A stretch of 56,154 nt of DNA from Pseudooceanicola sediminis (GTDB lineage Bacteria > Pseudomonadota > Alphaproteobacteria > Rhodobacterales > Rhodobacteraceae): contig NZ_QWJJ01000020.1 in assembly GCF_003575965.1 (NCBI RefSeq), positions 1 through 56,154 of the forward strand. Direction: 5' to 3'. Under the pieces are notes generated by a model. The model did no database searches and had not been told where the DNA came from. It was given only the letters and a program-made list of their open reading frames with translations. Made by a program: the position numbers and the translations under genes. Positions 41,366 through 56,154 of the stretch are shown piece after piece. Position 1 is the first letter of the stretch. Each line of letters starts with the position of its first letter.

Positions 41366-41399
41366 TCCCCGGTCATAACCAAAAACACGAGCAGAGGAG

Positions 41400-41530: not shown

Positions 41531-41605
41531 TGTTGCCTTTTCTCGCCAAAAACAGCGAGAAGAGCCGGGGAAGTTGTGGGCCGCAACGGTCGTCGTTCAA
41601 CAAAC

Positions 41606-42661
41606 ATGGCATTCACAAAGCTTTCCGTTCAGACCTTTGGCGTCGGCAAGGGCACCCCCCCCACGACCACACCTGAAACCGACATCTGGGCAGTCTTCCG
41701 CGCGCTCAGAGATAGTCGCTGCCTGTTCGGTCTCCGTCCAGGACATGTTCAAACGCTCCAAGCGATGCTGAGCTTTCTCAAGCCTGGGCATGGCGACACA
41801 GTCTTCGCTTCCAACGACGAGATCTGCCGTCGAGTTGGCGGGATCGATGAACGAACCCTCCGTAGGCACATCGATCGCTTTGTTGAACTCGGTTTTATGA
41901 AGCGCCACGACAGCCCAAATCGCAAAAGATACCGAGTGAAGTCGTCCGAAGGTCAGTCCATTAGCTATGGCTTGTCGCTGGCTCCGTTGCTCGCGCGTGC
42001 CGGCGAACTACTTGCAACAGCCCAAGCGATGGAAAACGCTCGTCGGGATCGCGTGTTTTTGCGAAAGCAAATCCTAACCAAACTTGCGCAGATCGACGAA
42101 GCTGACCCCGAGAACGAACTCACTCATCAGGTACGCCGAGTTCTTCGGAGGAAGCTCTCGATCACGGAGTATCGTGCTTTGCTCGGCGAACTGGAAGCTC
42201 AATGCAAACAGATGTCCACCGCGGTGGACGCACCAGAAACAATGAAACTGCCCGCCAATGACGGGCAAACTGTCCGCCACCATTCTAAGTCTAAAAAAGA
42301 ACAAAAAGATTTAGAAAGCGGGACCGACAGCGAAACACTTCCCCTGCAAACACTCACAACCGTTTGTGATCAAGCTACATCGTTCGCGACGAACTCACTT
42401 AGAAACTGGCACGATGTCGAAAGCCACGCCAGAACGCTCGCTCCAATGATGGGAATCCACGAAAGCACCTTCGAAAAGGCTGCTAGAAAGATAGGCTCTC
42501 AAAAAGCATCGTGCGCCATCTTCATAATTCTCCAGATGAGCAACCGCATCCGAGACTTCGGAGCGTATTTCCACAGCATCACGCTCGGTCGCAGAGAAAC
42601 TGACTTCAACCCATCAGTGTTGTTGGAGAGGCTTTCTCGTTCTGGGGCAGCTACTGCGTGA
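41606..42661 (+). CDS. repC: RepC replication initiator
   Basis: 351 aa from ATG 41606 (MAFTKLSVQTFGV). The N-terminal winged-helix region includes CLFGLRPGHVQTLQAMLSFL, FASNDEICRRVGGIDERTLR and RHIDRFVELGFMKRHDSPN; the C-terminus has ARTLAPMMGIHESTFEKAAR and IILQMSNRIRDFGAYFHSIT, as in RepC. It opens the origin located inside repC. The last codons overlap a perfect palindrome, and another copy lies in-frame at 42214. Confidence 0.93.
   Translation: MAFTKLSVQTFGVGKGTPPTTTPETDIWAVFRALRDSRCLFGLRPGHVQTLQAMLSFLKPGHGDTVFASNDEICRRVGGIDERTLRRHIDRFVELGFMKRHDSPNRKRYRVKSSEGQSISYGLSLAPLLARAGELLATAQAMENARRDRVFLRKQILTKLAQIDEADPENELTHQVRRVLRRKLSITEYRALLGELEAQCKQMSTAVDAPETMKLPANDGQTVRHHSKSKKEQKDLESGTDSETLPLQTLTTVCDQATSFATNSLRNWHDVESHARTLAPMMGIHESTFEKAARKIGSQKASCAIFIILQMSNRIRDFGAYFHSITLGRRETDFNPSVLLERLSRSGAATA
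42214..42229. repeat. Perfect 16-bp palindrome inside repC (candidate parS)
   Basis: GTCCACCGCGGTGGAC, identical to the core at 42663-42678. Repeated long palindromes near repABC are typical parS sites bound by RepB. Confidence 0.65.
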
Positions 42662-42680
42662 TGTCCACCGCGGTGGACAT
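42661..42680. repeat. Perfect 20-bp palindrome at the repC stop (candidate parS)
   Basis: ATGTCCACCGCGGTGGACAT, starting at the last base of the repC TGA. Same core as 42214-42229, 449 bases apart. Confidence 0.65.
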
Positions 42681-42712
42681 GTTGAGAGGTAGAGATGGGC
42701 TGTGAAAGGGTT

Positions 42713-42762
42713 GACGGGAAGTGAGATCGGGAGAGTGGCTTCCGGCGCCCGTCGTGGAGAAT
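42713..42762 (+). promoter_or_regulatory. Structured 5' leader, type 1 (copy A)
   Basis: Outer stem GACGGG (42713-42718) with CCCGTC (42748-42753); inner hairpin GGGAG-AGTGG-CTTCC (42729-42743). The Shine-Dalgarno GGAG follows the 3' strand. Same architecture as 49884-49929 and 55371-55408. Resembles radC-motif RNAs as I remember them. Confidence 0.65.
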
Positions 42763-42767
42763 ATCTG

Positions 42768-44936
42768 ATGGCGAAATCTACCCAGAAAGTCACCCTGTCC
42801 CCGTCCCGGGATATCCCCTTCGACAAACTCGTTCTGAGCCAGTCCAACGTCCGGCGCATCAAGGCTGGCATCTCGGTTGAGGAACTGGCCGAAGACATCG
42901 CCCGCCGCGGGTTGCTGCAGAGCCTGAGCGTTCGGCCCGTTCTGGCGGATGATGGATCCGAGACCGGCAAGTTCGAAATCCCCGCTGGTGGTCGGCGCTT
43001 CCAGGCCCTGTCTATCCTCGTGAAGCAGAAGCGTCTGGCCAAGACGACGCCCATTCCCTGCATCGTACGGGATGCCACTTCCGCGATCCTCGCCGAAGAC
43101 GACTCGCTCGCTGAGAACATGCAGCGCGCAGCCCTGCATCCGCTCGATCAGTTCCGCGCCTTCGTTGCTTTGCGGGAGAAGGGTCAAGGCGATGAAGAGA
43201 TCGCGGCCGCTTTCTTCGTCACGCCGCAGGTGGTCAAACAGCGCCTGAAACTCGCCGCCGTGGCCCCTGCCCTGCTCGAGCTCTATGCCGAGGACGAGAT
43301 GACGCTGGAGCAGCTGATGGCCTTTACGGTCAATCCGGATCACGAGCGCCAAGTTCAGGTCTGGGAGGCAATTCGTTCGTCCTGGAATAAAGAGCCCTAT
43401 CAGATCCGGCGCATGTTGACAGAAACCTCGGTGCGGGCCTCTGACCGTCGTGCTGTCTTTGTCGGCGTCGAGGCGTACGAGACGGCTGGTGGCACCATGT
43501 TGCATGACCTCTTTCAGGGCGATGACGGCGGCTGGCTGGAAAACCCTGCCCTGCTCGATCGTCTGGTCAGCGAGAAGCTTCAGGCTGAAGCCGAAGCGAT
43601 TGCGACCGAAGGTTGGAAATGGATCGAGGTCTCGCTCGACCTGCCCTATGGCTATAGCCACGGTTTGCGGCGGCTGAGCGGAGACCCGGCGCCGATGACA
43701 GATGACGAAGGCGCGGCCCATGCCAAGCTGCTTGCCGAGTACCGGGCGCTCGAGGAGGAATACGAGGGCCAGGATGAATTCCCCGAAGAGATCGACGCGC
43801 GTCTTGGCGAGTTGGAAGTCGCGATGGAGAAACTCGATGCCCGGCCGCTGATTTTCGACGCGGAGGAGATCGCACGGGCAGGGGCGTTTGTGACGCTTGA
43901 CCGCTATGGCGAGCTTGCAGTTTATCGGGGCTTCGTGCGGCCTGAGGATGAGCCTCGGGAAGACGCCAATGTCCACAGCGGTGAACTGGCGGCAGACGGG
44001 CAGCGCGCTGAGCTTTCAGCGCCGAACAGCGTAGATGGTATCGGCAATGGCACGGTGATCACTGCTGCCGGTCAAGCCCTCGGCGCGAACGTGCCCGAAG
44101 ACGAGGACGACGGTGCCTTGAAGCCCTTGCCTGAGCGGCTGGTCATGGAGCTGACGGCGCACCGGACATTGGCACTGCGCGAAGCTGTCGGTCGCTCCCC
44201 TGACGTCGCGTTGACGCTTCTGCTCCTGAGGCTCGTCAATGATACCTTCCGGACGTCCAGTTCGGTCGGCAGCTGCCTCGAGGTCTCGGTACGTCACGTC
44301 TACATGTCCGCGCAGGCGAGCGATCTGAAAGACAGCGTGGTGGCCAAGCTGGTGGACGATCGCCACGCGGAGTGGGAGGCCGAGTTGCCGCTCGGCGACG
44401 ATGCCGCGCTCTGGGACTTCCTGACCTCCCTTGATCAAGGGAGCCGGCTGTCGCTGCTCGCGCATTGCCTCAGCTTCGGGATCAACGCGCTCCACGAGAA
44501 GGTGAACCCCTATGGTGCCGGTATCACCGCCAGCGGTTTGACCAAGCGGATGACTCAGTCCGACTTGGTTGCACAGGCGGTCGAACTCGACATGGTCGAG
44601 GCAGGTTGGGAGCCGACTGCCGATACCTACCTGAACCGCGTGCCCAAGGCCCGGATCCTCGAGGCCGTGCGCGAGGCGAAAGGGGAAGGCACTGCCCAAC
44701 TCCTCGATCACCTGAAGAAGGGCGAGATGGCGACTGAAGCCGAGCGTCTGCTGAAAGACAGCGGCTGGTTGCCGGAGGTTCTTCGCCGTCACGATCCGGC
44801 GGTACTGGACGGTGCAGAAGGGCAGGGGGCGTCTGAACCCGTTTCCGACATCGACCAGACCGAGGATGTCGACCTTCCCGCCTTCCTCACCGCTGACCTG
44901 CCGGGTGATGATGCGTCGATGATGGCTGCGGAGTGA
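42768..44936 (+). CDS. Large ParB-domain plasmid protein
   Basis: 722 aa from ATG 42768, preceded by TGGAG and the type-1 leader; an upstream in-frame start at 42702 would place the leader inside the gene. ParB-N is at ~15-130 (DKLVLSQSNVRRIKAGISVE, EDIARRGLLQSLSVRPV, FEIPAGGRRFQALSIL, EDDSLAENMQRAALHPLDQF) with a KorB-like HTH (AAAFFVTPQVVKQRLKLAAV). The remaining ~500 residues are acidic/helical and unassigned. Such proteins are common on large plasmids and may act as global DNA-binding or antirestriction-linked factors; no ParA partner here. Confidence 0.88.
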   Translation: MAKSTQKVTLSPSRDIPFDKLVLSQSNVRRIKAGISVEELAEDIARRGLLQSLSVRPVLADDGSETGKFEIPAGGRRFQALSILVKQKRLAKTTPIPCIVRDATSAILAEDDSLAENMQRAALHPLDQFRAFVALREKGQGDEEIAAAFFVTPQVVKQRLKLAAVAPALLELYAEDEMTLEQLMAFTVNPDHERQVQVWEAIRSSWNKEPYQIRRMLTETSVRASDRRAVFVGVEAYETAGGTMLHDLFQGDDGGWLENPALLDRLVSEKLQAEAEAIATEGWKWIEVSLDLPYGYSHGLRRLSGDPAPMTDDEGAAHAKLLAEYRALEEEYEGQDEFPEEIDARLGELEVAMEKLDARPLIFDAEEIARAGAFVTLDRYGELAVYRGFVRPEDEPREDANVHSGELAADGQRAELSAPNSVDGIGNGTVITAAGQALGANVPEDEDDGALKPLPERLVMELTAHRTLALREAVGRSPDVALTLLLLRLVNDTFRTSSSVGSCLEVSVRHVYMSAQASDLKDSVVAKLVDDRHAEWEAELPLGDDAALWDFLTSLDQGSRLSLLAHCLSFGINALHEKVNPYGAGITASGLTKRMTQSDLVAQAVELDMVEAGWEPTADTYLNRVPKARILEAVREAKGEGTAQLLDHLKKGEMATEAERLLKDSGWLPEVLRRHDPAVLDGAEGQGASEPVSDIDQTEDVDLPAFLTADLPGDDASMMAAE

Positions 44937-44948
44937 TCTGAGTCATCC

Positions 44949-44970
44949 GAGGGCGGGAAAACCCGCCCTC
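44949..44970. terminator. Hairpin terminator after the ParB-like gene
   Basis: GAGGGCGGG-AAAA-CCCGCCCTC, a perfect 9-bp stem, 13 bases past the stop. No long T-run. Confidence 0.7.
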
Positions 44971-45035
44971 AATCTCATAAATCTCAACAATATCAACTAG
45001 ATGAATGAAAAATCACGCATTCAGGATGAGGAATC

Positions 45036-45509
45036 ATGTCTGCAACGACCATTCTCGACACCGCGCCCCTGGGGGCGCTCATTCGCTACACCGACAACAG
45101 TCCGAAACCGCCCGCGCGGTTCACAAAGAAGCTCGCGGCCTGGGAGCGCTCGAACGGCGTCGGCCGTCTTGTCAAGAAGGAGCCACCGCGACCCTATCCG
45201 ACCTGGACTGCGCCGGCGTCGTTCACGCTGCACGAGGGGAATTTCTCTTCGGACGGGGTCATTCTCGTGACGATCATGCGAACGCATTCGGCTGACAGCG
45301 CCTTGACCTTCGAGGTCGCTGAGGAACCACAGCCCGGGCAGGTTCGCGTCCTTTTGGATTTCGGCGGTTGCACGGAGCTGCTCCACCTGGCCGAGTCTGT
45401 CACGGCTGCCGAGCTCTGGATCGCCAAAGAAGGCTATCGCAATGCGCGGCTGGAGATTGTCGGCGAAGAAGGCGCTGCTAGGGCAGGGGGCGCGGAGCTT
45501 GCCGCCTGA
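45036..45509 (+). CDS. Hypothetical plasmid protein
   Basis: 157 aa; GAGGAATC precedes the ATG. Sequence reads as a real protein (SATTILDTAPLGALIRYTDN; VRVLLDFGGCTELLHLAESV; AELWIAKEGYRNARLEIVG) with no membrane segment or known motif. It sits in the maintenance block between the large ParB-like gene and small genes. Unknown function. Confidence 0.65.
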   Translation: MSATTILDTAPLGALIRYTDNSPKPPARFTKKLAAWERSNGVGRLVKKEPPRPYPTWTAPASFTLHEGNFSSDGVILVTIMRTHSADSALTFEVAEEPQPGQVRVLLDFGGCTELLHLAESVTAAELWIAKEGYRNARLEIVGEEGAARAGGAELAA

Positions 45510-45528
45510 GCCTACGTAGAACCCAAGG

Positions 45529-45549
45529 GGCCCGCCAAAGCGCGGGCCT
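45529..45549. terminator. Hairpin after the 157-aa gene
   Basis: GGGGCCCGC-CAAA-GCGCGGGCCTC forms a GC-rich stem 20 bases past the stop. No T-run. Confidence 0.55.
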
Positions 45550-45847
45550 CTCACCCATCACGACCCTGTCCCGCGAGATCGCGGGGCACCATAGGTTCCA
45601 ATCCAACACGGAACTAGATCTGGTACCAAATGTCTGCCGGGAGGCTGGCAGCGATGACATCAGTGGAACATACGGCTCCAGTCAGCGGTCGCACCATCCC
45701 CCGCTCGCCATTCCCTTCCTTGCCCCGAATCCTGTCTTCGAGATCAACCCGCGAGGGGGCGGACTACGGGCGAACCCGTGCCGCCGGGTGGATTCGGACG
45801 AGCCGAACGCACCCGGTGATGTCAGCCAGTCTTCGGGCCTGCGAGGT
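45550..45847. other. Intergenic, no gene supported
   Basis: About 300 bases leading to the leader of the 54-aa gene. An upstream in-frame extension of that gene passes through here, but its composition (Ser/Arg/Pro-rich) and the leader structure argue against translation. Confidence 0.45.
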
Positions 45848-45890
45848 CCTGTCGCGCGGGGGATGGTCCCCCGCCTCCAAGACAGGAGCC
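45848..45890 (+). promoter_or_regulatory. Structured 5' leader, type 2 (copy A)
   Basis: Outer stem CCTGTC (45848-45853) with GACAGG (45881-45886); inner perfect hairpin GGGGGA-TGG-TCCCCC (45858-45872). The 3' strand runs into the Shine-Dalgarno AGGAG, so folding could mask it. Same layout before ssb. Confidence 0.6.
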
Positions 45891-45896
45891 AAACAG

Positions 45897-46061
45897 ATGT
45901 CCCGCAAAGATGCTCACGCCTTCGCCGCCTCCCTCGCCGCCACGCTCATGGTTTCGATCGTCGTCTTCCAGGCCGGGGATGGAACCTATGGCGCTGTCCC
46001 CGCCGATGAGATCGACGGCGACGAGGTCGTGATCGTCTCGGAATACGATCCTTTCGGGTGA
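45897..46061 (+). CDS. 54-aa small protein
   Basis: Starts at ATG 45897, 8 bases after AGGAG at the foot of the type-2 leader. Sequence: a helix with hydrophobic face (HAFAASLAATLMVSIVVFQA) then an acidic tail (DEIDGDEVVIVSEYDPFG). Possibly membrane-associated; no family recognised. Followed by a hairpin (46095-46109). Confidence 0.6.
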   Translation: MSRKDAHAFAASLAATLMVSIVVFQAGDGTYGAVPADEIDGDEVVIVSEYDPFG

Positions 46062-46094
46062 GGCTTCGGCCTCACGTTTCAGACGGCTCGGGTT

Positions 46095-46109
46095 CGGAGC
46101 AAGGCTCCG
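46095..46109. terminator. Hairpin after the 54-aa gene
   Basis: CGGAGC-AAG-GCTCCG with flanking partial pairing and CCTTTC behind it. Confidence 0.45.
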
Positions 46110-46316
46110 ATCCGGGCCTTTCGCCTGTCCACCGTTCCGGCTGACCGGCAAAATGAGCCGACGATGGTCGGCATGCCTTTGCATAAAAACGAGCTCGAGC
46201 GTCAGCCAATCTGGCTTTGCCCAGACATCAGCGGTCAATTGCAGTGCCATGAAGACCGCTTGAATATCGTCAGGGTTCGTCGGAAACTGCGTCGTATTTG
46301 GTTCAGGTCACGTCGC

Positions 46317-47369
46317 ATGCTCTACAAATCATTGATTTCCTTATACGGTTCATCGCTTGCGGGTAGATCGGCTCCTGCTGACGACCTTGTTTGGCACTTT
46401 GCGCCGTCCGAAGATCTGAGGCGCTTTCGCGAGTATGCGCTCGATGCCCTGCAGCAAGCGAAAGTGTACCTGCTCGACCATATGGCTGCAGCCTATGCCG
46501 ATACGCTTCATGACGCAGTCGCCAAGCAGGCTTCGGAAACCGGTCTTCCCGCAATGGCCATTCTGGGTGAGGTAAAGCTCCCTGCCGACGTTGTTTGGGT
46601 CGAATTCGACGATCGAGAGCTGGGTGTCGCGCGCTTTGAACGGGCTTCACCTGTAACGAGACATGACGACAAACCCGTAGGCACTGGTCTACGCGGCTAT
46701 CTCATCGATGATCGTAACAAGGGCCACTTGCGCATCACGATGTTCCATCGCCGCGAGAATTCGCGGGTCGTCGATCCAATCTGCGCTTTGCTCGTGAAGC
46801 GAATTCCGACAGGCGAGTTGAACTACGACAACGTCGAAGTCGAGTTGAGCCGTTCCATGGTCGAATTCCGTGTGCGGAGCGGTGATACGATGGAAATGAT
46901 CAACGGTCGGCGCACGGTGCACCAAGTTGAAACAGGCTACGACCTGTTCATCCCTTACGCGCTCTTTGCGATGCTGGTTTCCCCGGACTTGGGTGGCATC
47001 ATTCCCACGGAAAACGAGACGTTCACAGCCAAGGATGCCAAGACCGCTCGAAAATTCGGGAAGTCCTGGATTCTAGGTGCGCAGAAATCCCATCTTACAA
47101 TCCGCATTGGTCCGCAGGCCGCGGCTCACATGCAGGAGCGGCAGGCTCGCCTTGAGTTCGAGCGTCAGGTCCAGGACGGGCGAAGCGGCCCTGTTCGCCA
47201 TTGGGTGAGCGAACATGAGCGGCGCTATCGCAGCGGTAAAGTTGTGTTGGTGAAGGGGCACCACAGAGGGCAATTGCCTGCGCCTAATCTGCCAACGCGT
47301 GTGATGGGGCCGAAACCCGAGGCAACGATTTTCGAGTTGGACGCAGTTGATCGGTCCGACCCAGACTGA
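46317..47369 (+). CDS. Unknown plasmid protein with weak AcrVA2-like features
   Basis: 350 aa if started at ATG 46317 (MLYKSLISLYGSSLAGR); an upstream start at 46164 (401 aa) is possible but its extra residues are poor. Blocks: LPADVVWVEFDDRELGVARF, GLRGYLIDDRNKGHLRITMF, DLFIPYALFAMLVSPDLGGI and a basic end RHWVSEHERRYRSGKVVLVK-GHHRGQ. This order of an aromatic-rich beta domain, an 'IPYxLFxMLVxPDL' segment and a terminal basic GH-x-R block recalls the AcrVA2 anti-CRISPR group, which has many uncharacterised plasmid relatives. Sequence similarity judged by eye only. Function unknown. Confidence 0.6.
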   Translation: MLYKSLISLYGSSLAGRSAPADDLVWHFAPSEDLRRFREYALDALQQAKVYLLDHMAAAYADTLHDAVAKQASETGLPAMAILGEVKLPADVVWVEFDDRELGVARFERASPVTRHDDKPVGTGLRGYLIDDRNKGHLRITMFHRRENSRVVDPICALLVKRIPTGELNYDNVEVELSRSMVEFRVRSGDTMEMINGRRTVHQVETGYDLFIPYALFAMLVSPDLGGIIPTENETFTAKDAKTARKFGKSWILGAQKSHLTIRIGPQAAAHMQERQARLEFERQVQDGRSGPVRHWVSEHERRYRSGKVVLVKGHHRGQLPAPNLPTRVMGPKPEATIFELDAVDRSDPD

Positions 47370-48076
47370 ACCCGGAGTTTGCCGCGCGGTCATGTCGTCA
47401 GCCGTCAATCTATCGCCGCCACATCGACGAACCCCCGTAGTTTTCGGCCGTGACCTGACCAGGTCGGCGCCAAGAGCTCAGGGAGCCGGAAATCCAACAA
47501 TGTTGGCGCAAAGCGGTATCCGCTCTCCCCGATCAGCTCGGCCAGGAAGTGGCCCATACCATGGCGATGGCTTCCGCCTTCGCGCAACCTTTCGCCATCT
47601 GCCAATCCAAGACCGTGAAGAATGCCCCGGCGACTTCCTTCTGCATTTTCTGTCCGCGTTAAGCGACAACGTCCCGAGATCCCACTCAGCTAGTGGGTGC
47701 GGTCCGTGTCCTGAATATTCCGGTATCGATAGCCTGTCGCGGCAAGGCCCTGCATTTCCCAGCGGGGAAGGGCAGGGGGGCGAGAGCCGGTGATGGACAC
47801 TTGCGCCGCTGGTGGGGAGTTGGGCTTTGGGTCAAACAGTCCCGATTGGCAAGGGGACATGGTCTAGCAAGGGCTCCCCGCATCTCTCTGTCTTCTGGGC
47901 CATCCCTTCGACTGACAATCCCCTAATCCCGTTCGGGCTCTCGCGCGCAACCCCGCGTCAGTCCGGGCCGTGTTGGCCGCCTTTGGCGTCCTGCCCGCTC
48001 CACCCCGGTCCTTTGGGGGTTTCCGGTGTCCATGCTGTCCACCGTGCACGCGTCACCCGACGGGCTTTTTCAGGGT
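47370..48076. other. Long gap, at most one small gene
   Basis: About 700 bases. The best frame is minus-strand 47405-47605 (66 aa, including MGHFLAELIGESGYRFAPTL, LDFRLPELLAPTW), which reads like protein but has no family. Several GC-rich hairpins occur. Otherwise nothing recognised; this is the promoter side of ssb. Confidence 0.4.
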
Positions 48077-48105
48077 CTTGTCGAAGGGACGGTCCCGAAG
48101 ACAGG
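48077..48105 (+). promoter_or_regulatory. Structured 5' leader, type 2 (copy B, ssb)
   Basis: Outer stem CTTGTC (48077-48082) with GACAGG (48100-48105), inner GGGA-CGG-TCCC (48086-48096), 17 bases before the ssb ATG. The first stem has U-G where copy A has C-G. Confidence 0.6.
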
Positions 48106-48122
48106 ACACACAGGAGCTTATC

Positions 48123-48527
48123 ATGCAGAACATCGTCATCCTCGCCGGCAACATCGGTCAGACCCCCGAAGTCCGCACCACCCAGAGCGGCACCAAGATC
48201 ACCAACTTCAGCCTCGCCACCTCGCGCCCCCGCCTCTCGGAAGGCCGTGTGATGCGCGACGAGAACGGCTACCGGGTCATGGACACCGAATGGCACCGCA
48301 TCACCTGCTTCAACGGTCTCGGCAAGACGGTCGCTGAGCATTGCGAAAAGGGCATGAAGGTCCTCGTCCACGGCCGCATCCACTACACCAAGTGGATCGA
48401 CAGCATGGGGAACGACCGCTACGGCTGCGAGATCATTGCCGAGAAGGTCGACTTCCTGAGCCGCCCGAAGTCGGCCGAGAACGAAAACCCCGAACTGGTC
48501 GACCGCGACGATGAGATCCCGTTCTGA
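48123..48527 (+). CDS. ssb: Single-stranded DNA-binding protein
   Basis: 134 aa. OB-fold features: MQNIVILAGNIGQTPEVRTT, TKITNFSLATSRP, DTEWHRITCFNGLGKTVAEH and KGMKVLVHGRIHYTKWIDSM; the C-terminal tail DDEIPF is the partner-binding peptide. AGGAG precedes the ATG by 7 bases. Plasmid-borne SSBs support replication and conjugative entry. Confidence 0.95.
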   Translation: MQNIVILAGNIGQTPEVRTTQSGTKITNFSLATSRPRLSEGRVMRDENGYRVMDTEWHRITCFNGLGKTVAEHCEKGMKVLVHGRIHYTKWIDSMGNDRYGCEIIAEKVDFLSRPKSAENENPELVDRDDEIPF

Positions 48528-48551
48528 GGAACGGGGTCTCCCCCCCTCAGG

Positions 48552-48573
48552 CCCGGCGGGGAAACCCGCCGGG
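48552..48573. terminator. Hairpin after ssb
   Basis: CCCGGCGGG-GAAA-CCCGCCGGG, perfect 9-bp stem with a GNRA loop, no T-run. Confidence 0.6.
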
Positions 48574-48630
48574 TTCGCTGCACTGCTACAATGTAGCTTC
48601 GAGCCCACTTTGGCCGATGATGCAATGCAG

Positions 48631-49704
48631 CTATCTGCCGAGCAGTGCACGCATTAACGGGTTCGTCATGGCAATGTCGGGCATGCTTTCCGGTCGGTAT
48701 GGAATATTGAATTTGATCAGGTCGTCGGACTCGCGCGACGCTTCGACACCAATGCTCTCAGCCATGTCCTCTAAGATATCGCCGATTGCCTCGAAGGCAT
48801 CCAAATTCTTCCATCTCCCAAACTCGTTCCAAAGCGCCTCCTGCATTTCAATCAAGCGTTCGTAGAACGGAGAAAACCACCCAAACTCAGCCTCATCGGT
48901 GAGAGCAGGCGGATGCGTTTCTGGGGTTTCCTGCGCTGCTGCAGCACCCACAAAGTAAGATGAATACTTCAGCAGATCGCCGAGCTTCCCATATACTTCC
49001 CCTACAATCTGCCCAACATCCCCGTGGGTCCGATATGCCTTAATCAGCTCACAGCATTGGCCCCTGGTATCGCCCAACACCTTGACCAAGGTTTCGAGGT
49101 AACCCTCTACGGGATCATCTCCAATGGAGCCGGCGATGCGGCATACAGCATACTCATCCCACGTTGCCAGAATAACCTGCCAGCGCATGTTATCTAGGAT
49201 ATTGCTGTGTGTTTTCTGAAGAAGAAACCCGGGGAACGACTTGTCAAATGCTGCTGTCACCTCCACATGCGCGCATTCGTGTGCAATTAGGTGAAGTGAT
49301 TGCCAAAAGTATTCGGTTTCCTCCCCAGGTCCTTCTAGGATGCTGAGCGCGTAGTTCGCGTTAAGTACTAGATGCGTTTTGATCACACCGTCGCGAATTA
49401 CCGTGGGCGCCATTGCAACACCGATGGCGACACCTTTGGTGGCGGTGAGTGTGTAGGTTGTCTCATATCCACGATCAAGATCAGCCAGTGCTTCGTCGTA
49501 GTCGAAGGCGACCGTCACGCCATCCAGGTTAGTTAGGTCGATGGATTGACTGATGACGCTGAGAACGGAATGCAACTTGTACATCGCCTCCTTGGCGTAG
49601 TCCTCGTCTGGAAACATTCTGGCGGAAAACTGAAGGTCGCTCGGAATCGTAATGCCTTGTGGCAGTTCGTCGGTCTTGCCCTCTTCATCCTGCAACTTGC
49701 TCAC
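48631..49704 (-). CDS. Putative zinc metalloprotease-like protein (HECAH)
   Basis: 357 aa, of lower GC than its neighbours. HECAH at 142-146 (SLHLIAHECAHVEVTAAF) is an HExxH zinc-protease motif, and WDEYAVCRIAG (Glu184) could give the third ligand as in gluzincins. The rest is helical and acidic, ending IAMTNPLMRALLGR. No signal peptide. It is oriented against its neighbours and looks like an acquired cargo gene. Known possibilities include stress- or defence-linked metallopeptidases, but no family was recognised. Confidence 0.65.
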   Translation of the reverse strand: MSKLQDEEGKTDELPQGITIPSDLQFSARMFPDEDYAKEAMYKLHSVLSVISQSIDLTNLDGVTVAFDYDEALADLDRGYETTYTLTATKGVAIGVAMAPTVIRDGVIKTHLVLNANYALSILEGPGEETEYFWQSLHLIAHECAHVEVTAAFDKSFPGFLLQKTHSNILDNMRWQVILATWDEYAVCRIAGSIGDDPVEGYLETLVKVLGDTRGQCCELIKAYRTHGDVGQIVGEVYGKLGDLLKYSSYFVGAAAAQETPETHPPALTDEAEFGWFSPFYERLIEMQEALWNEFGRWKNLDAFEAIGDILEDMAESIGVEASRESDDLIKFNIPYRPESMPDIAMTNPLMRALLGR

Positions 49705-49883
49705 CTTTCACCCCCTAAGTCTGAGATTCCCACGCACATCTAGAGATGGACACATACTGCGCTGGAACAACCGAATCTGGGTAGGAAATTCGGCGATTGC
49801 GCAATCGCAGCGAGCGCCCGCTTCGTCCCGCATTGCCGCCGCTCGTGCCTCTTTTGAAGAGTGAGAGAAAGGCTGATTGCTTT

Positions 49884-49929
49884 CGCGACAGGTTAAAGGC
49901 TGGGAGAGTGGCTCCCGGCGCCTGTCGCG
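49884..49929 (+). promoter_or_regulatory. Structured 5' leader, type 1 (copy B)
   Basis: Outer stem CGCGACAGG (49884-49892) with CCTGTCGCG (49921-49929), inner hairpin GGGAG-AGTGG-CTCCC (49902-49916), plus an upstream GAAAG...CTTTC. The Shine-Dalgarno GGAGG overlaps the end of the stem. Confidence 0.75.
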
Positions 49930-49940
49930 GAGGAATGCCG

Positions 49941-51140
49941 ATGGGCGTTGTGGAAGTTCTGGATCCGGTACAGCCGACGCGGGCTGGTGGCTGGAAGGTG
50001 GATGTGAGCCGGGGTGAGCGGAACGGGCGGGTGTCGTCCGAATGGTTCAACCGGCCCGATGACGAGCGGTATCTGTCGCTCGACGATCTCTGGGCGAGCG
50101 TGAAGGGTCGCTCCGAGCGCAGCCGCAGCCGCGTGGTGCAGACAGCGGACATCCGCGTCGAGGCCGCGCGCGACAGCGCCGAGCGATTGCATCTGGTCCT
50201 GCCGAAGGCGCATGAGCCGGTCGTGCCTACCCATTGGGCGTTTGGCCAGCTTGCCAGCATTGTCGGCGCTCCGGCCTCCTACCTGCGGCAGCTGCCCGCG
50301 CCGCTGGCGGGGATCAACCTGCAGTACGGTCTGACAAACCACCGTGCCGAGCAGGTTAAGACCTTCGAGACTGAGGATGGCCGCACGGAACTGCGCGCCG
50401 TCACCGGTCCCGACTACGGCCGCATCCACGACTTCGAGCTTGTCGAGGCGGTGCAGCGCATCGCGGGCAATGGCACGAGCGATACGCGCTGGAAGGTGCC
50501 GGGTGTGCTGGATTGGTCGACCGGGGTCTACAACCCCGATGTCGAGATCAGCCGCGACACGACCACGCTCTACGCCTCGGACCGCGACGTCTTCCTGTTC
50601 CTCGTCGACGATCGCAATCCGATCGAGGCGGGCAAGCTGGCGGACGGCTCTCCCGACCTCTACTTTCGGGGGTTTTACTGCTGGAACTCCGAGGTTGGGG
50701 CGAAGACCCTCGGTATGGCGAGCTTTTACCTTCGGGCGGTGTGCCAGAACCGCAACCTTTGGGGCGTCGAGGATTTCCAGGAGATCAAAATCCGCCACTC
50801 GAAATACGCGGCCTCGCGCTTCGCCCATGAGGCGGCCCCGGCGCTGACGCGGTTTGCCAACTCCTCGCCGCAGGGGTTCGTGAATGGGATCAGGGCGGCA
50901 CGGCAGCAAGTCGTGGCGCGCAGCGACGAGGACCGCGCGGATTTCCTGCGCAAGCGCGGCTTCTCGAAGGCCGAATCCGGCAAGATCATCGAGAAGGTGC
51001 TGATGGAGGAAGGCCGACCGCCGGAAAGCATCTTCGACTTCGTGCAGGGCATCACGCGGCTCGCGCGAGACAAGACCCAGCAGGATGCCCGCCTTGATAT
51101 GGAAGGGCGCGCCAAGAAGCTCCTCGACCGGGTCGGCTGA
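49941..51140 (+). CDS. DUF932-family protein
   Basis: 399 aa from ATG 49941 (7 bases after GGAGG; the ATG at 49935 is too close). DUF932 character: LPKAHEPVVPTHWAFGQLAS, IVGAPASYLRQLPAPLAGIN, LRAVTGPDYGRIHDFELVEA, YASDRDVFLFLVDDRNPIEA and YFRGFYCWNSEVGAKTLGMA. DUF932 proteins are widespread on plasmids and phages next to radC and antirestriction genes; their biochemical role is not settled. The gene follows a type-1 leader. Confidence 0.9.
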   Translation: MGVVEVLDPVQPTRAGGWKVDVSRGERNGRVSSEWFNRPDDERYLSLDDLWASVKGRSERSRSRVVQTADIRVEAARDSAERLHLVLPKAHEPVVPTHWAFGQLASIVGAPASYLRQLPAPLAGINLQYGLTNHRAEQVKTFETEDGRTELRAVTGPDYGRIHDFELVEAVQRIAGNGTSDTRWKVPGVLDWSTGVYNPDVEISRDTTTLYASDRDVFLFLVDDRNPIEAGKLADGSPDLYFRGFYCWNSEVGAKTLGMASFYLRAVCQNRNLWGVEDFQEIKIRHSKYAASRFAHEAAPALTRFANSSPQGFVNGIRAARQQVVARSDEDRADFLRKRGFSKAESGKIIEKVLMEEGRPPESIFDFVQGITRLARDKTQQDARLDMEGRAKKLLDRVG

Positions 51141-51264
51141 CGCGAAGCCCGGCACAGCGACCGCCTGCATCCGCGGCGGTCGCGTTTTCCTCTTCCACAT
51201 GCACGCCACCGGCCCCGCCCCGAGAGGGAAGGGGCGTCGAGGTGGGTAACTCAGCGAGACCCCC

Positions 51265-51548
51265 ATGACCCCCCAGGAAGAAACCGTCATCCTCGAGGCC
51301 CGAGACATCCTCGGCCGCTATCTCAGCCGAAACCCCGTCATCGACAGCTGGCAGGCGCTTCTTGACTATTGCGCGCTGACGGTGCGCGGGCCGATCGAGC
51401 GGTTCCACGTTCTCTATCTCGACCGCAAGAACTGCATCATCGCCGATGAGCTCTTGTCGATCGGCACGGTCGACCATGTCCCGGTCTATCCGCGCGAGGT
51501 GATCAAACGGGCTCTGATGCTGAACGCCAGCGCCCTGATCCTGGTCCA
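51265..51548 (+). pseudogene. radC: radC, 5' part interrupted by a RIT element
   Basis: The frame encodes EEARDILGRYLSRNPVIDSW, GPIERFHVLYLDRKNCIIAD and YPREVIKRALMLNASALILV-H, the first ~95 residues of a RadC/JAB-domain protein (N-terminal HhH missing, as in plasmid versions). It is cut just before the JAMM motif H-x-H; the remainder resumes at 55153. The open frame continues into the element to 51657 but that part is not RadC. Confidence 0.9.
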
Positions 51549-51572
51549 TTATGTGGCGCGCCACATAATGGA
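51545..51572. repeat. 28-bp perfect palindrome at the RIT left junction
   Basis: Core TTATGTGGCGCGCCACATAA (51549-51568), extended by four matching bases on each side. The half TTATGTGGC recurs within the terminal repeats. Likely a recombinase site or the product of end-joining. Confidence 0.7.
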
Positions 51573-51712
51573 TCTTTTGTGCCCCGTTTTCTTATGTGCC
51601 CCGCCGTCAAGATCAGTAGCTCTTTCAATGGCTTCTGAGCTAAAGCCCGGCACATAACGGCAAACGTCGTGCAACATGACAGCTCCTGCAATTTTCCAGA
51701 AGGATGCTTGTC

Positions 51713-52972
51713 ATGTTGGAACGCCATTTCAGGTCGCTCAAGGTGATCGACCGTATCAGAGCCCAGTGGCTTGGGCCGCAGATCGAGCGCTACGTTCAAT
51801 CGCTTGATGAGTTACATACCGGTACCGCTACTATTCAGCAGAATGTTCGGGCCCTCGGACACTTCAACGAGTTCGTCGTTGGACGTGGTGTTCAACGCCT
51901 TGATCAGCTTCCAGATCACGTAGATGCGTTTGTAAGCCACTGGTTTGCTAAACACGGCAAGTGGTGCAAGAGCGCACAGGACCGGGCGGCAATCGCTTCC
52001 CAAAGCCGTTTGCCTGTGGAGCGAATGCTTTGCCTAGCTCTGCCTGGTTTCACACGTCCGAGCCATCGTCCCCGCATGCCCTTCTGTGTCAGCGCACCTG
52101 GTTTTTTCCCTTTCCTTCTCAACGAGAAAGGACTGCGCCAAGCCACGCTACACAAATACACCTACACCCTGCGCCCGTTCGAGTCATACTTGGCGCAGAC
52201 GGGCATAACCCTGTCGGCGCTTACCCCGGCGTCCATCACTGATTTCATTAACACCCGCGCGGAGACGTTGCACAAGTCCGGCATGCTCGGCACGACCGGC
52301 GCCTTGCGCGTCTTCCTCGCCTATCTGCACCGTGAAGGCATCATTGCGAACGATCTCACACGCAGTCTTCCGCGCGGCCGCGCCTATCGACAAGCATCCA
52401 TTCCACGTGCCATTTCATGGCCTGATGTCGAGCGCCTGCTGGCCAGCGTCGATTGCCGCTCCGACGTGGGCAAACGCGACTATGCCATTCTGACATTGCT
52501 GGCCAGCTACGGATTGCGTGCAAGAGAGATCGCGGCCCTGTGCCTCGATGATATTGATTGGGTGCATGACCAGATCAGCATCCCAATGCGCAAAGGCGGC
52601 CATTCGACCCGATATCCGCTGTCAGCGACCGTCGGCGAAGCCATAATCGCCTATTTGCACGTTCGGCGCACGGATATCGCCGATCGCCAAGTCTTCTTGG
52701 CCGCAAGATCGCCATATACACCTATGAGGCATACGGGGGTGTCGTGCATGGTTTCTGGCCGCATGCGCAGTATTGGCATTCAGGTTGCACGTGCCGGCTC
52801 GCACACATTGCGCCATGCCTGCGTTCAGCACCTTGTAGAAGCCGACCTGCCCTTCAAAGTCATTGGCGATTACGTCGGTCATCGCCACCCCGCATCCACA
52901 TTGGTCTATGGCAAGGTGGCGGTGCACAAGCTGCGAGAGATGGTCATTGCCCAAGGGGAGGACGTGCTATGA
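51713..52972 (+). CDS. RIT tyrosine recombinase A
   Basis: 419 aa from ATG 51713 (AAGGA 8 bases upstream; ATG 51704 is too close to it). The catalytic domain has LLASYGLRAREIAALCLDDI (Arg I), AGSHTLRHACVQHLVEADLP (H-x-x-R) and GHRHPASTLVYGKV (His, Tyr nucleophile). The N-terminal part is a core-binding domain (LHKYTYTLRPFESYLAQTGI). First of three co-translated recombinases. Confidence 0.93.
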   Translation: MLERHFRSLKVIDRIRAQWLGPQIERYVQSLDELHTGTATIQQNVRALGHFNEFVVGRGVQRLDQLPDHVDAFVSHWFAKHGKWCKSAQDRAAIASQSRLPVERMLCLALPGFTRPSHRPRMPFCVSAPGFFPFLLNEKGLRQATLHKYTYTLRPFESYLAQTGITLSALTPASITDFINTRAETLHKSGMLGTTGALRVFLAYLHREGIIANDLTRSLPRGRAYRQASIPRAISWPDVERLLASVDCRSDVGKRDYAILTLLASYGLRAREIAALCLDDIDWVHDQISIPMRKGGHSTRYPLSATVGEAIIAYLHVRRTDIADRQVFLAARSPYTPMRHTGVSCMVSGRMRSIGIQVARAGSHTLRHACVQHLVEADLPFKVIGDYVGHRHPASTLVYGKVAVHKLREMVIAQGEDVL

Positions 52973-53961
52973 CCGCCCCCTGGAACAGCTTTCAAAGCAT
53001 CCTGGCCCCTCAGATCGAACAATACCTGCGTGCAAAACGCGCCATGGGATGCAAGTTCGCCTGCGAAGATCGCCAACTTCGGCTGCTCGATCGATTTCTC
53101 AACAACCGCGGCGTGGAAAGCATTGAGGCGATTGACGCACAGTGCCTGCAGGACTTCTTGGATTCCCGCAACCGAACCAACCCGCGGAGCTACAATAATC
53201 TGCTCGGAGATGTTCGACGGTTGTTCGACTGGATCGCCAGCCAACAAATCCTTGGTGCCTCACCGGTAACGATCAAGCCTCAGCCGCAAACAGCGCGACA
53301 GCTGCCTTACCTGTTTTCTGACAAGACTATCCGGCTACTGCTGACTTTGGCCGCAGCATTGCCAGATAATTCACGCGCACCACAGCGCGGCATTCTCTAC
53401 GAGATGATCTTTGCCTTGCTCGCTGGCCTTGGGCTGAGGGTCGGGGAGGTCGCTCGCCTTCAGTGGGGCGATGTGGACCTGACCCGCGAAGTGTTGGAGA
53501 TCCGCAATACCAAGTTTGGCAAGGATCGACTTGTGCCCTTTGGCCCCAAGTTGGCCGCCAGGCTACGCAGCTACCTGACGCAACGCGAGCAACATGGGTT
53601 CGCCTGCTCGGGCACCAATTACCTATTTTCCTGGAATGGCCGTACACCGATCAGCACCAACAGCATCCGGAACACTTTTCGCGATGACCTGTTGCCGCAA
53701 CTCGCCCTTGTGATCCCGCCTGGAGTTTTCGGTCCCCACGTTCATGGCCTGCGCCATTCATTCGCGGTGCGCACCCTGCTGAACTGGTACCGCCAAGGGA
53801 TCACGCCGGCAGACCGCCTCCATCATCTGTCCACATTTCTGGGGCACCTCAATCCCAGCAGCACCGCAGTTTATCTGACCATCACTAACGATCTTTTCGA
53901 TGCCGCCAATCAGCGTTTCGAGGCCTTCGCACCGACGCTGAGCGGTGGAGGCCAAGCATGA
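52969..53961 (+). CDS. RIT tyrosine recombinase B
   Basis: 330 aa, ATG overlapping the previous stop (ATGA). Catalytic residues in LLAGLGLRVGEVARLQWGDV (Arg), VHGLRHSFAVRTLLNWYRQG (H-x-x-R) and FLGHLNPSSTAVYLTITNDL (His, Tyr). N-terminal core-binding segment GVESIEAIDAQCLQDFLDSR. An upstream in-frame extension from 52744 overlaps recombinase A and is not used. Confidence 0.93.
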   Translation: MTAPWNSFQSILAPQIEQYLRAKRAMGCKFACEDRQLRLLDRFLNNRGVESIEAIDAQCLQDFLDSRNRTNPRSYNNLLGDVRRLFDWIASQQILGASPVTIKPQPQTARQLPYLFSDKTIRLLLTLAAALPDNSRAPQRGILYEMIFALLAGLGLRVGEVARLQWGDVDLTREVLEIRNTKFGKDRLVPFGPKLAARLRSYLTQREQHGFACSGTNYLFSWNGRTPISTNSIRNTFRDDLLPQLALVIPPGVFGPHVHGLRHSFAVRTLLNWYRQGITPADRLHHLSTFLGHLNPSSTAVYLTITNDLFDAANQRFEAFAPTLSGGGQA

Positions 53962-54968
53962 CACAGCTGAACCTTCCCACCGCCGTTCACCATTACTTTC
54001 TGGAGTATCTGCCGCGCCACAAAGGCCTGCAATCCAGCACGATCCGCAGTTATCGAGACAGCCTGCGTCTATTCCTGATCTTCGTTGCGGATGCCAATCG
54101 GATCGGGGTCAGTGGCCTCGGGTTCGAGCATTTGGACTACTCTGCTGTGCAGGCATTCCTAAACAACATGGAGGTCAAGCGCGGCAACGCCATCAGTACG
54201 CGCAACCAGCGCCTGACGGCCCTGCACGTTTTCTTCGAATATCTCTGCCGGACCGCACCAGAGATGTTGCCGGTCAGCGCCAAGGTTGCAGCCATACCGA
54301 TGAAGCGCCATCAGCGCCCAGAGATGAAGTTTCTGGCACGTGATGAGGTCGAGGCGCTCTTTGCCTGCATCCCCGCCCAGGATCGTCTTTCGCTGCGCGA
54401 CCGCGCGCTCCTCATGCTGCTCTACAACACCGGTGCGCGCGTCTCAGAGGTCGCGCAACTGAAGGTGGGCCAACTCGATTTAGCCTCACCGGCGCGGGTC
54501 AGGCTGCTCGGCAAAGGGTCAAAGTGGCGAACCTGCCCTCTTTGGAGCCAGACCGCCAAGGCGTTGCAGGACATGCTGGATGAACGCGCCACAGTTCTTT
54601 CGCCAGATACCATTGTGTTCGTCGGCGGCACAGGCGGCGGGATGACCCGTTTCGGCATCTACAAGCGTATTCGCCATCACGCCAAACTCTGGGAGGCGGC
54701 GGGCGTACAAGCCTCACGCACCCACATCACGCCCCACGTGTTTCGGCACACAACGGCGGTCCATCTCCTCGAGTCAGGGGTGGAGGTTAACGTCATTCGG
54801 GGCTGGTTGGGGCATGTCAATCTGGAGACGACCAATCGCTACGCCGAGATAACCATACGCATGAAGGCGGAAGCCCTGAAACTGCTTGAGCCGGTTGCTG
54901 GTGGCAAAGCACGAAAATCCGCATGGCGAGATGACGCGGCCATGCTGGCGTGGCTCTCATCCCTGTAG
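53958..54968 (+). CDS. RIT tyrosine recombinase C
   Basis: 336 aa, ATGA overlap with recombinase B. Catalytic motifs: LLYNTGARVSEVAQLKVGQL (Arg), HVFRHTTAVHLLESG (H-x-x-R) and WLGHVNLETTNRYAEITIRM (His, Tyr). N-terminal core-binding region LQSSTIRSYRDSLRLFLIFV. The basic tail GKARKSAWRDDAAMLAWLSS ends 184 bases before the right terminus. Confidence 0.93.
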   Translation: MTQLNLPTAVHHYFLEYLPRHKGLQSSTIRSYRDSLRLFLIFVADANRIGVSGLGFEHLDYSAVQAFLNNMEVKRGNAISTRNQRLTALHVFFEYLCRTAPEMLPVSAKVAAIPMKRHQRPEMKFLARDEVEALFACIPAQDRLSLRDRALLMLLYNTGARVSEVAQLKVGQLDLASPARVRLLGKGSKWRTCPLWSQTAKALQDMLDERATVLSPDTIVFVGGTGGGMTRFGIYKRIRHHAKLWEAAGVQASRTHITPHVFRHTTAVHLLESGVEVNVIRGWLGHVNLETTNRYAEITIRMKAEALKLLEPVAGGKARKSAWRDDAAMLAWLSSL

Positions 54969-55152
54969 CGATATGACACTGGGCGGCATGATTGGCCGCC
55001 CAGTGTCTCGACAATCATCTGTCGCCCAAAACCAGAAACACCTGATGCCAACAAGCATGCACCGTTATGTGCCCAGCCTTGCCTCAGAAGCCATTGATAG
55101 AGCTACCGATCTTGACTTCGGGGCACATAAGAAAACGGGGCACAAAAGATCC

Positions 55153-55310
55153 ACAACCACCCGTCGGGAGATCCAACGCCGTCGGAGGCCGATCTCAGCA
55201 TGACCAAGGAGATCCAGAAGGGTTGTCGCTATCTCGGCCTCACGCTGCACGACCACATCATCGTCGGCGCCGGGACGGAACTGAGCCTGCGGGCCCTGGG
55301 CAAGCTCTGA
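55153..55310 (+). pseudogene. radC: radC, 3' part after the RIT element
   Basis: Joined in frame to 51548 this gives ILV-HNHPSGDPTPSEADLSM (complete JAMM motif H-x-H-x7-S-x2-D) then GCRYLGLTLHDHIIVGAGTE to LRALGKL. So the gene is broken only by the element, and precise excision would restore it. Confidence 0.9.
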
Positions 55311-55370
55311 CGCGCCTTTCGTACCCGCCGCCGTCGCCCCTTCGAGGAAGAGGGCGGCGGTTCGGTCTTT

Positions 55371-55410
55371 GACGGTTTGAAGCGGTGAGAGAGGCTTTCC
55401 GCACCGTCGG
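55371..55410 (+). promoter_or_regulatory. Structured 5' leader, type 1 (copy C)
   Basis: Outer stem GACGGT (55371-55376) with ACCGTC (55403-55408); inner hairpin GAGAG-AGG-CTTTC (55387-55399); GGAG at the foot of the stem. Third copy, with compensatory base changes relative to A and B. Confidence 0.65.
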
Positions 55411-55420
55411 AGATATGCCC

Positions 55421-55939
55421 ATGTTCGACCTTCCTTGCCAAACTCAGCCGGAAACGCAGAACACAAGTTTGCCGCCGAGCCTCCTGACCGATTTTAAAGA
55501 TCAAGACTTGCCGTTTGCGCTCACGACGACTTGCCATACGCCCGGGGCTCTCATGTCCGGGCAGGCACACCCCATGGTACTGGAGCGGTTTGCCACGCTG
55601 GCCGAGGCCATGCAGGGGGCAATCGTTCACGCCGAAGATATCACACCTGAAGACGCTCCGCGCATCCTGGCAATCCTCGATCGGGAGGGCCGTCTCGTTC
55701 TGGCCGGAGCTACCTGTGATGGCGGGGTCGCATGGTGCCACCCGGTCTCGGATGCCGCCGAAGCCCGCGCCGTCGTGTCCGAGGCAAGCCAGACCCGCGC
55801 GCAGGCCATGCGGGCGGCCGAATGGCATGAACATGGCCTCGCGCGACGGCTGCGGCACCACGCCGACGTTCTCGATGCCCGTCTTGTCGATCCGCTCTGG
55901 CGTGTCTTCGCGTCTCGCGCCCTGCAGATCGCGGCGTGA
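55421..55939 (+). CDS. Hypothetical plasmid protein
   Basis: 172 aa from ATG 55421 (GGAG 8 bases upstream; ATG 55415 is too close). Reads LVLAGATCDGGVAWCHPVSD and AEWHEHGLARRLRHHADVLD; no membrane segment, no known domain. It follows radC and the type-1 leader, so it probably belongs to the same maintenance block. Confidence 0.6.
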   Translation: MFDLPCQTQPETQNTSLPPSLLTDFKDQDLPFALTTTCHTPGALMSGQAHPMVLERFATLAEAMQGAIVHAEDITPEDAPRILAILDREGRLVLAGATCDGGVAWCHPVSDAAEARAVVSEASQTRAQAMRAAEWHEHGLARRLRHHADVLDARLVDPLWRVFASRALQIAA

Positions 55940-56036
55940 CGCCCGAGAGTCAGAGAAGGGCTGGGGAGGATGTGAGCCTAGGAGGACGAGAGAGAGCCTC
56001 GGGGTTCAGATCCATTCCCTCATTTCGGAGTTTCCA

Positions 56037-56154
56037 ATGTCCAAGATCGAACCCACTCTGGCCGCGCCGATGGCGCCGTCCAGGATTGATTTCGCCGCCG
56101 TGCTGGCTCGGCAGTCCGAGCGTGACGCGCGGATCGCAGCTTTGCGTCCGGCCA
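56037..56154 (+). CDS. Start of an unidentified gene, cut by the window edge
   Basis: ATG 56037 preceded by CGGAG at about 9 bases. The 39 codons read MSKIEPTLAAPMAPSRIDFA, AVLARQSERDARIAALRPA. Too short to assign. Confidence 0.5.
   Translation, partial: MSKIEPTLAAPMAPSRIDFAAVLARQSERDARIAALRPA

Follow-up and report, generated by a model that had tools for sequence, protein, structure and literature searches.

Several genes on one contig of Pseudooceanicola sediminis are preceded by copies of a structured leader RNA, and these leaders appear to form a leader-RNA family not described before, though of a general type already known. The contig (NZ_QWJJ01000020.1, contig C18 of the 4.44-Mb genome), analyzed over its whole length of 56,154 nucleotides (nt) and called the window here, has such leaders upstream of a ParB-like gene, a DUF932 gene and a gene for a 172-aa protein (p172), and a longer leader of related layout upstream of a DUF6878-type gene (Table 1). 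Comparison of aligned copies shows a two-helix hairpin in the coding strand that ends at the Shine-Dalgarno (SD) sequence and is kept by compensatory and G·U changes. The same comparisons show a linear tag at a nearly fixed distance 5′ of the hairpin, for which no conserved partner was found. On balance we lean towards reading the leaders as translational operators, in which the SD is occluded, that are read by a putative factor and shared by a maintenance and establishment regulon of mobile elements.

Three of the leaders had been located in a preliminary description of this DNA, and in all three the stems, inner helix, AGNGG loop and GGAG SD can be read directly from the sequence. The outer helix is GACGGG/CCCGTC in leader 1 (ParB-like gene), GACAGG/CCTGTC in leader 2 (DUF932 gene) and GACGGT/ACCGTC in leader 3 (172-aa gene). 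The extents originally given are right for the hairpins but fall short of the whole unit, whose conserved part begins about 25 nt further 5′; the count of three was likewise too low, since there is a longer fourth leader.

Comparative evidence for the fold

For the comparison, homologues of the three genes were collected from 89 loci, and the 110 nt preceding each were taken. The loci are the window, two of its own genome, four plasmids, 80 genome contigs and two from a radC search. These contain 26 ParB, 83 DUF932 and 68 p172 places. The core GGGAGAGNGGCT, with up to two mismatches, is present at 176 of the 177 places upstream of homologues.

Alignment A3 includes 47 of the 53 ParB and DUF932 representatives; six were dropped by choice and the 28 representatives of p172 were excluded on purpose. 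Pairing is found in 95.6% of the cells of A3, compared with 38–48% in slid-partner controls, and double changes occur in 7 of its 16 pairs. Among 500 shuffles, six reach two of the five measures and none reaches the other three. Alignment A5 has 96.5% of its cells paired and 9 of 16 pairs with double changes. A8 has 85 distinct sequences among 87 matches; pairing is kept in 96.7% of its 1350 cells, and both sides have changed in 14 of 16 pairs. Its slid-partner controls are 33–52% paired, and none of 500 shuffles reaches any of the five measures. It should be noted that A5 and A8, drawn from 38 and 44 loci picked for diversity, were fitted to a model and thus lean towards structure, whereas A3 was not fitted, and that a few of the matches in A8 are weak, the lowest scoring 24.6 bits. 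The covarying stems of the preliminary description are thus borne out by compensatory changes in wider alignments.

A covariance model, R1, made from A3 only and therefore with no 172-aa leader, finds the 172-aa leader of the window with 37.3 bits (E = 1.2e-6). The next-best place for R1 in the window is the reverse strand of the DUF932 leader, at 17 bits, and the other two window matches are training sequences. In the paired positions G·U cells outnumber A·C cells by 104 to 18 in A3, 166 to 22 in A5 and 178 to 24 (about 7 to 1) in A8. Thus it is the coding strand that forms the fold, as expected for an RNA.

Exact matches to the short core GAGAGNGNCTYYC in the window are the three leaders only. 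With one mismatch allowed there are 6 matches where 5.6 are expected, which is the chance level, and the short core pattern alone is no proof. In folding of single leaders against shuffles, z is −4.7 for the DUF932 leader, −2.7 for the 172-aa leader and −1.3 for the ParB leader, and with longer segments −4.6, −1.4 and −1.1, respectively. Single-sequence folding was dropped as proof because the DUF932 leader alone stands out. Taken by themselves, the window's leaders are modest evidence, and it is the comparison across homologues that decides the matter.

Anatomy of the class A leaders

Leaders of the type of leaders 1 to 3 are termed class A. Their order is the tag AGAG-NN-AGAG, a 5′ flank, the outer helix GUGACGGG/CCCGUCRC, 6–8 nt, an inner helix with the pentaloop AGNGG, GGAG and the start codon, with the tag about 15–25 nt upstream of the hairpin. 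The apical loop reads G-AGNGG-C in 59 of the 85 distinct A8 rows. Information content, calculated from 110 non-redundant leaders of 127, is 0.5–1.15 bits at most tag positions and 0.02–0.28 bits at each of the 55 positions before the tag. Thus conservation falls off 5′ of the tag, and tag and hairpin make up one unit with a sharp 5′ border. The exact tag pattern has two matches in the window, in leaders 2 and 4, with 0.04 expected.

Occlusion of the SD is predicted in most class A copies. The predicted probability that GGAG is unpaired, P(unpaired), was obtained for 62 leaders, a set outside of which the window's 172-aa leader falls. Its mean is 0.20 with the real 5′ flank and 0.40 after shuffling of the final nine bases of the flank (Wilcoxon p = 9e-8, an optimistic value since the 62 leaders are related), and it lies below 0.2 in 35 of the real leaders compared with 8 for the shuffled means. 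In leader 2 the SD GGAGG is predicted to pair with CUUUC at 49880–49884, and P(unpaired) of its GGAG is 0.02.

Two further ideas on the anatomy were rejected. One was a universal second hairpin, upstream and containing the tag: swaps of its 5′ arm, done with 97 of the 110 leaders, made no difference on the whole, with Wilcoxon p values of 0.75 for folding energy and 0.14 for duplex energy. Fourteen of the 97 are in the top 5% of duplex swaps, and a subset of leaders (those of p172 and some of ParB, by inspection) may have an upstream hairpin. The other was co-evolution of the loop base within one element; the base follows the gene instead, being mostly T in ParB and DUF932 leaders and mostly A in p172 leaders. 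A repeated hairpin, CCCCTTCTGCGGGGAGACCCCGCAACGCCCC or a variant of it, is found just 5′ of the tag in loci L144, L157, L158, L159, L169, L170, L179, L184 and L121, ahead of ArdC and some DUF932 leaders.

Genes preceded by the leaders

Fifteen gene families of the module were scanned for the tag pattern RGAG-NN-RRAG at −110 to −40. It is present upstream of 23 of 26 ParB, 64 of 83 DUF932, 66 of 68 DUF6878 and 30 of 31 helicase genes. No tag was found upstream of p157 (29 genes), RadC (60), SSB (59), hyp54 (37), primase (12), DUF2493 (4), WGR (3) or three small genes (68, 59 and 59). Of 20,000 random 70-mers from the loci, 1.35% match the pattern. The core with up to two mismatches is found upstream of all 26 ParB and all 83 DUF932 genes, 67 of 68 p172, 20 of 68 DUF6878, 18 of 31 helicase, 6 of 60 RadC and 1 of 3 WGR genes, and in none of the other families.

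Fifty-five leaders from other genomes stand before ParB (19), DUF932 (18) and ArdC-like genes (8) and before one other gene (in L181); three of the remainder are read out of frame and six have no open reading frame of 100 aa. In another set, 38 leaders in 20 regions from the order, with one more in L093, precede ParB (17), DUF932 (16), p172-like (3) and ArdC-like (2) genes, and one has no open reading frame. In 20 regions of 20 kb around the hits in the class there are 41 tag matches with an SD and an open reading frame, at places partly shared with the other leader sets. They comprise 16 at ParB (including a chance match within the gene), 7 at ArdC, 6 at helicase and 4 at DUF932 genes, 3 at a gene for an SNase-like 173-aa protein, one each at DUF6878 and a 126-aa protein, and 3 that look like chance. 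ArdC is confirmed by the domains ArdcN (PF08401) and zincin (PF18818), and the 173-aa protein by SNase (PF00565).

The SNase-like gene (L205 3806–4324; also in L204 and L206) has a leader of the same plan, so the regulon may extend to genes other than those of DNA maintenance. The SSB and 54-aa genes have upstream hairpins of their own, different and without a tag (L014 upstream of 23924, L015 upstream of 18184; for example CCTGTC...GACAGG around an inner stem). These are possibly further leader families of the module.

Class B leaders

The tag search also found leaders of the same plan but with a longer and different hairpin, termed class B, before DUF6878 and helicase genes. Their layout of tag, hairpin with GAGAG-type apex and SD is that of class A, built with other hairpins. 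The structure of class B is less well supported than that of class A. Alignment A6 consists of the window and 30 of the 33 tagged DUF6878 representatives, with two tagless ones left unaligned. The RNAalifold consensus on A6 is weak, as double changes occur in only 4 of its 16 pairs, perhaps because of misaligned sub-types. The helicase leaders of L187, L188, L189 and L202 have, just 5′ of the SD, a CUCUCCC that is complementary to the GAGAG apex and to the tag and could form a pseudoknot with either; it is not seen in most leaders of the wider helicase set.

Distribution

With R1, at E ≤0.01, leaders are found in 51 of 196 genomes of the order and in 37 of 88 genera. With the covariance model R2, at E ≤0.001, they are found in 27 of 385 genomes of the class. 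A draw from the phylum searched with R2 gave 33 of 398 genomes, all 33 in the window's own class (the number from outside the class among the 398 is not stated). The 80 named contigs of the comparative set have nearly all Rhodobacterales-type names, with a few Hyphomicrobiales. Two module contigs are labelled outside Alphaproteobacteria, L034 (Enemella evansiae) and L095 (a gammaproteobacterial metagenome-assembled genome), which may reflect contamination, mislabelling or transfer.

In the window's own genome six matches have E values under 0.001; the window contig and contig C22 have three each. The C22 leaders are a second, diverged copy and are accompanied by DUF932 and p172 genes. C22 opens with bases that are the reverse complement of those at the end of the window.

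Relation to known RNA families and systems

At the gathering score Rfam 15 gave no match in the window or in seven leader loci, and a permissive scan of nine leader loci, with E up to 0.5, gave neither radC nor any other family at the leaders. The leaders had at first been taken as probable members of the radC motif. That membership is not supported: the radC model RF01754 has no match in 38000–56154 at E up to 5; over its cut-off it is found in none of 149 genomes of the order, and two weaker matches elsewhere have another layout. RadC motifs are associated with DNA-handling genes, and the leaders, which precede ParB, ArdC, helicase and DUF932 genes, share that context. The radC motif is also, like the leaders, a cis-regulatory RNA, by its Rfam type. 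Its model, however, has 149 positions and several helices, whereas the leaders fit two nested helices into about 50 nt. The motif is listed for Proteobacteria by Weinberg et al. 2010 (PMC2864571).

The STAXI motif, repeated pseudoknots that possibly form in single-stranded DNA, is found near SSB, antirestriction, integrase and topoisomerase genes (PMC2864571). No STAXI match was obtained from Rfam in the window or in the seven leader loci; that library should include a STAXI model. For Rhodobacterales a 2021 survey of structured RNAs shows the cco and cysS motifs (PMC8632094). In plasmids of the Bacillus pLS20 family, EGeRS1 is a conserved structured sequence immediately upstream of the ribosome-binding site of several establishment operons, ardC included; it was found through ardC, has about 325 nt, five copies and a branch with four ramifications, and whether it acts as RNA or single-stranded DNA is left open in that source (PMC8708921). 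As far as these descriptions go, EGeRS1 is the nearest known concept. In both cases one conserved structured sequence lies upstream of several operons including ardC, and the genes behind the leaders, too, may act in establishment. The leaders differ in having about 90 nt, two helices and a tag, and in belonging to Alphaproteobacteria; the two were compared by description only. The single-stranded promoters Frpo/ssi of F-like plasmids are hairpins upstream of leading-region anti-defence genes that carry −35/−10 elements and form in single-stranded DNA (PMC11541004); they are the other known means of early expression for genes of this kind. The leaders fold in the coding strand, which may or may not be the transferred one. 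A scan of 42300–56154 with the duplex sigma-70 consensus gave no −35/−10 pair at the leaders: it found two promoter-like sites, neither in a leader.

In known SD-occluding translational operators a hairpin lies over the SD, and lambda nut-like sites combine a linear boxA with a hairpin boxB. To our knowledge the leader sequence is unrelated to either. No published description of this leader was found in the literature searched.

Possible function of the leaders

If the leaders are translational operators, the 5′ flank (CUUC, UUUCC or UCUUU) would extend the outer helix over GGAG in most class A copies, so that translation is predicted to be off by default. A factor, most simply an RNA-binding protein, would recognize AGAG, which recurs in tag and loop, and open or stabilize the hairpin. 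Joint translation of the ParB, DUF932, ArdC, helicase and other genes may then follow whenever their products are required, such as upon entry into a new cell. The ParB, p172 and DUF6878 genes of L014 are preceded by gaps of 106, 108 and 101 nt, each roughly as long as a leader. These gaps leave little room for an intergenic promoter, and thus an intercistronic, translational element is favored there.

The factor could be encoded by the element or be a host protein. The ParB-like gene is the commonest companion of the leaders (25 of 29 loci and 17 of 20 class loci, where helicase is found in 11 and primase in 10). Since the ParB-like protein carries the leader itself and is related to Spo0J/ParB/Noc, it is the first candidate for the factor, but not more. 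ParB proteins bind CTP. It is conceivable, though improbable, that the ParB-like protein is an RNA-reading master regulator of establishment across Alphaproteobacteria, which would read AGAG, control its own translation and switch ArdC, DUF932, helicase and other genes together.

Several observations weigh against shared translational operators. The co-occurrence with ParB is biased, because the loci were chosen by leader matches that often stand before ParB, and is thus only a hint. The tag pattern is found in none of the 68 p172 leaders, which have GAGGAAGAGG instead, and is missing in 19 of the 83 DUF932 leaders. Occlusion of the SD is not universal: P(unpaired) is 0.2 or more in 27 of the 62 leaders, 0.41 in the ParB leader of the window and as high as 0.9 in some of the other leaders of ParB genes. 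In class B the SD is outside the hairpin. The window's class B leader folded alone has a z of −1.8, and its minimum-energy fold weakly pairs the GG of the SD with the tag; thus the tag is not certainly single-stranded. Finally, the DUF932 and helicase genes in L014 follow genes on the opposite strand, and so their leaders do not lie between cistrons and need promoters of their own. The earlier proposal that folding governs translation is supported as regards the predicted pairing of the SD in most copies; in several ParB leaders this pairing fails.

Other explanations should also be considered. An RNA thermometer or a ribosome-driven element, whose SD hairpin melts by heat or upstream translation, with the AGAG tag as a ribosome standby site and no dedicated factor, is unlikely, though some features fit: the predicted occluded SD has G·U closing pairs, a tag rich in purines could keep 30S subunits close by while the SD is hidden, and the tag follows the repC stop codon by 23 nt in leader 1 and the p172 stop codon by 6 nt in leader 4. 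However, neither the conserved AGNGG apex nor the sequence-conserved outer helix is necessary for melting, and the AGAG repeats of the tag are not AGGAGG-like. Slightly less plausible still is control of transcription by processive antitermination, where tag and hairpin act as a nut or put site at operon starts and load a protein on RNA polymerase. The layout of linear box and hairpin fits such a site, tagged leaders precede first genes and not the genes that come after, and some leaders have a stable hairpin just upstream; but antitermination needs neither a hairpin that abuts the SD nor a 5′ flank complementary to it, and three leaders fill gaps of about 100 nt between co-directional genes.

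We give little credence to an element at the DNA level, either an operator palindrome for the ParB-like protein or an Frpo-like single-stranded-DNA promoter used in plasmid entry. There is an inverted repeat before plasmid genes of the early-after-entry kind, and ParB proteins bind palindromes. Neither a duplex operator nor a folded template strand would be expected to show the excess of G·U over A·C in the coding strand, though, and the consensus scan found no sigma-70-like pair at any window leader; the low information content 5′ of the tag also speaks against such an element. A variant of the radC-motif RNA is highly improbable. The gene neighbourhood is similar, as the preliminary description had pointed out, and a radC gene lies next door, yet the radC model matches no leader and differs in size and helix plan.

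If the leaders are shared translational operators, one compact RNA module before unrelated families (ParB-like, DUF932, ArdC anti-restriction, Strawberry-notch helicase, DUF6878 and nuclease-like) would show post-transcriptional coordination of entry and maintenance functions. Covariance model and tag would then provide a sequence handle with which to search for more genes of the regulon and for the protein by which the leaders are read. It would also bear on how plasmids without Frpo-type promoters switch on establishment genes after transfer.

The window and its genes

Table 1. Leaders, leader-bearing genes and replication genes in the window
Feature	Coordinates	Strand	Evidence or remarks
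repABC replication genes	repA 39198, repB 40382, repC 41576		
Leader 1, AGAG tag AGAGGTAGAGA	42685..42695	+	position kept in 110 non-redundant leaders
Leader 1, hairpin	42710..42760	+	outer helix, inner G-rich hairpin, AGTGG loop, SD; R1 62.6 bits, R2 61.1 bits (training sequence in both)
Leader 1, outer helix	42713-42718 / 42748-42753	+	
Leader 1, GGAG	42756-42759	+	start codon 42768
ParB-like gene	42768..44936	+	722 aa; ParB_N domain, Pfam PF02195
Leader 2, AGAG tag AGAGTGAGAGA	49858..49868	+	pattern scan
Leader 2, hairpin	49884..49933	+	R1 73.1 bits (training sequence); fold −38.8 kcal/mol, z −4.7
Leader 2, outer helix	49887-49892 / 49921-49926	+	
Leader 2, GGAGG	49929-49933	+	start codon 49941
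DUF932 gene	49941..51140	+	399 aa; Pfam PF06067, E 2.9e-4, under the curated cut-off; relative annotated DUF932
Leader 3, tag-like GAGGAAGAGG	55344..55353	+	in possible upstream hairpin; from sequence, fails the tag pattern
Leader 3, hairpin	55368..55415	+	R1 37.3 bits (outside training), R2 52.4 bits (in training); fold
Leader 3, outer helix	55371-55376 / 55403-55408	+	
Leader 3, GGAG	55409-55412	+	predicted paired with UCUUU flank; start codon 55421
172-aa gene (p172)	55421..55939	+	
Leader 4 (class B)	55946..56034	+	tag AGAGTCAGAGA, long hairpin, GAGAGAG apex, SD GGAG 56027-56030; upstream of DUF6878-type gene
DUF6878-type gene	starts 56037	+	cut by contig end; counterpart in relative locus L014 is PF21798

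Downstream of repC the gene order is ParB-like, 157-aa gene, SSB, DUF932, radC, p172 and DUF6878. In relatives the module continues with genes for a 1458-aa helicase/methylase, primase, DUF2493 and WGR. The closest plasmid record over the region from repA to DUF932 is CP021117.1 of Aestuarium zhoushanense (Rhodobacterales), with 95.5% identity and 100% covered; the SSB of the window was named by alignment to it. The N-terminal part of the ParB-like protein is related to Spo0J/ParB/Noc by sequence matches to PDB entries. For p172 no Pfam or NCBIfam family was matched.

A repABC antisense RNA is expected between repB and repC. On the minus strand at 41413–41456, between these two genes, there is a weak match to the repABC antisense RNA ctRNA_p42d, with 25.8 bits where the cut-off is 50.

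The radC gene at 51265, which adjoins the leader-bearing genes, is interrupted by three consecutive tyrosine recombinases (51704–54968; element region 51549–55147). The trio is flanked by 92-bp inverted repeats, 51569–51660 and 55062–55153, that are 90% alike. The interrupting element resembles a recombinase-in-trio element. Comparison with the intact relative L014 suggests a possible 6-bp overlap, or target duplication, at the interruption of radC.

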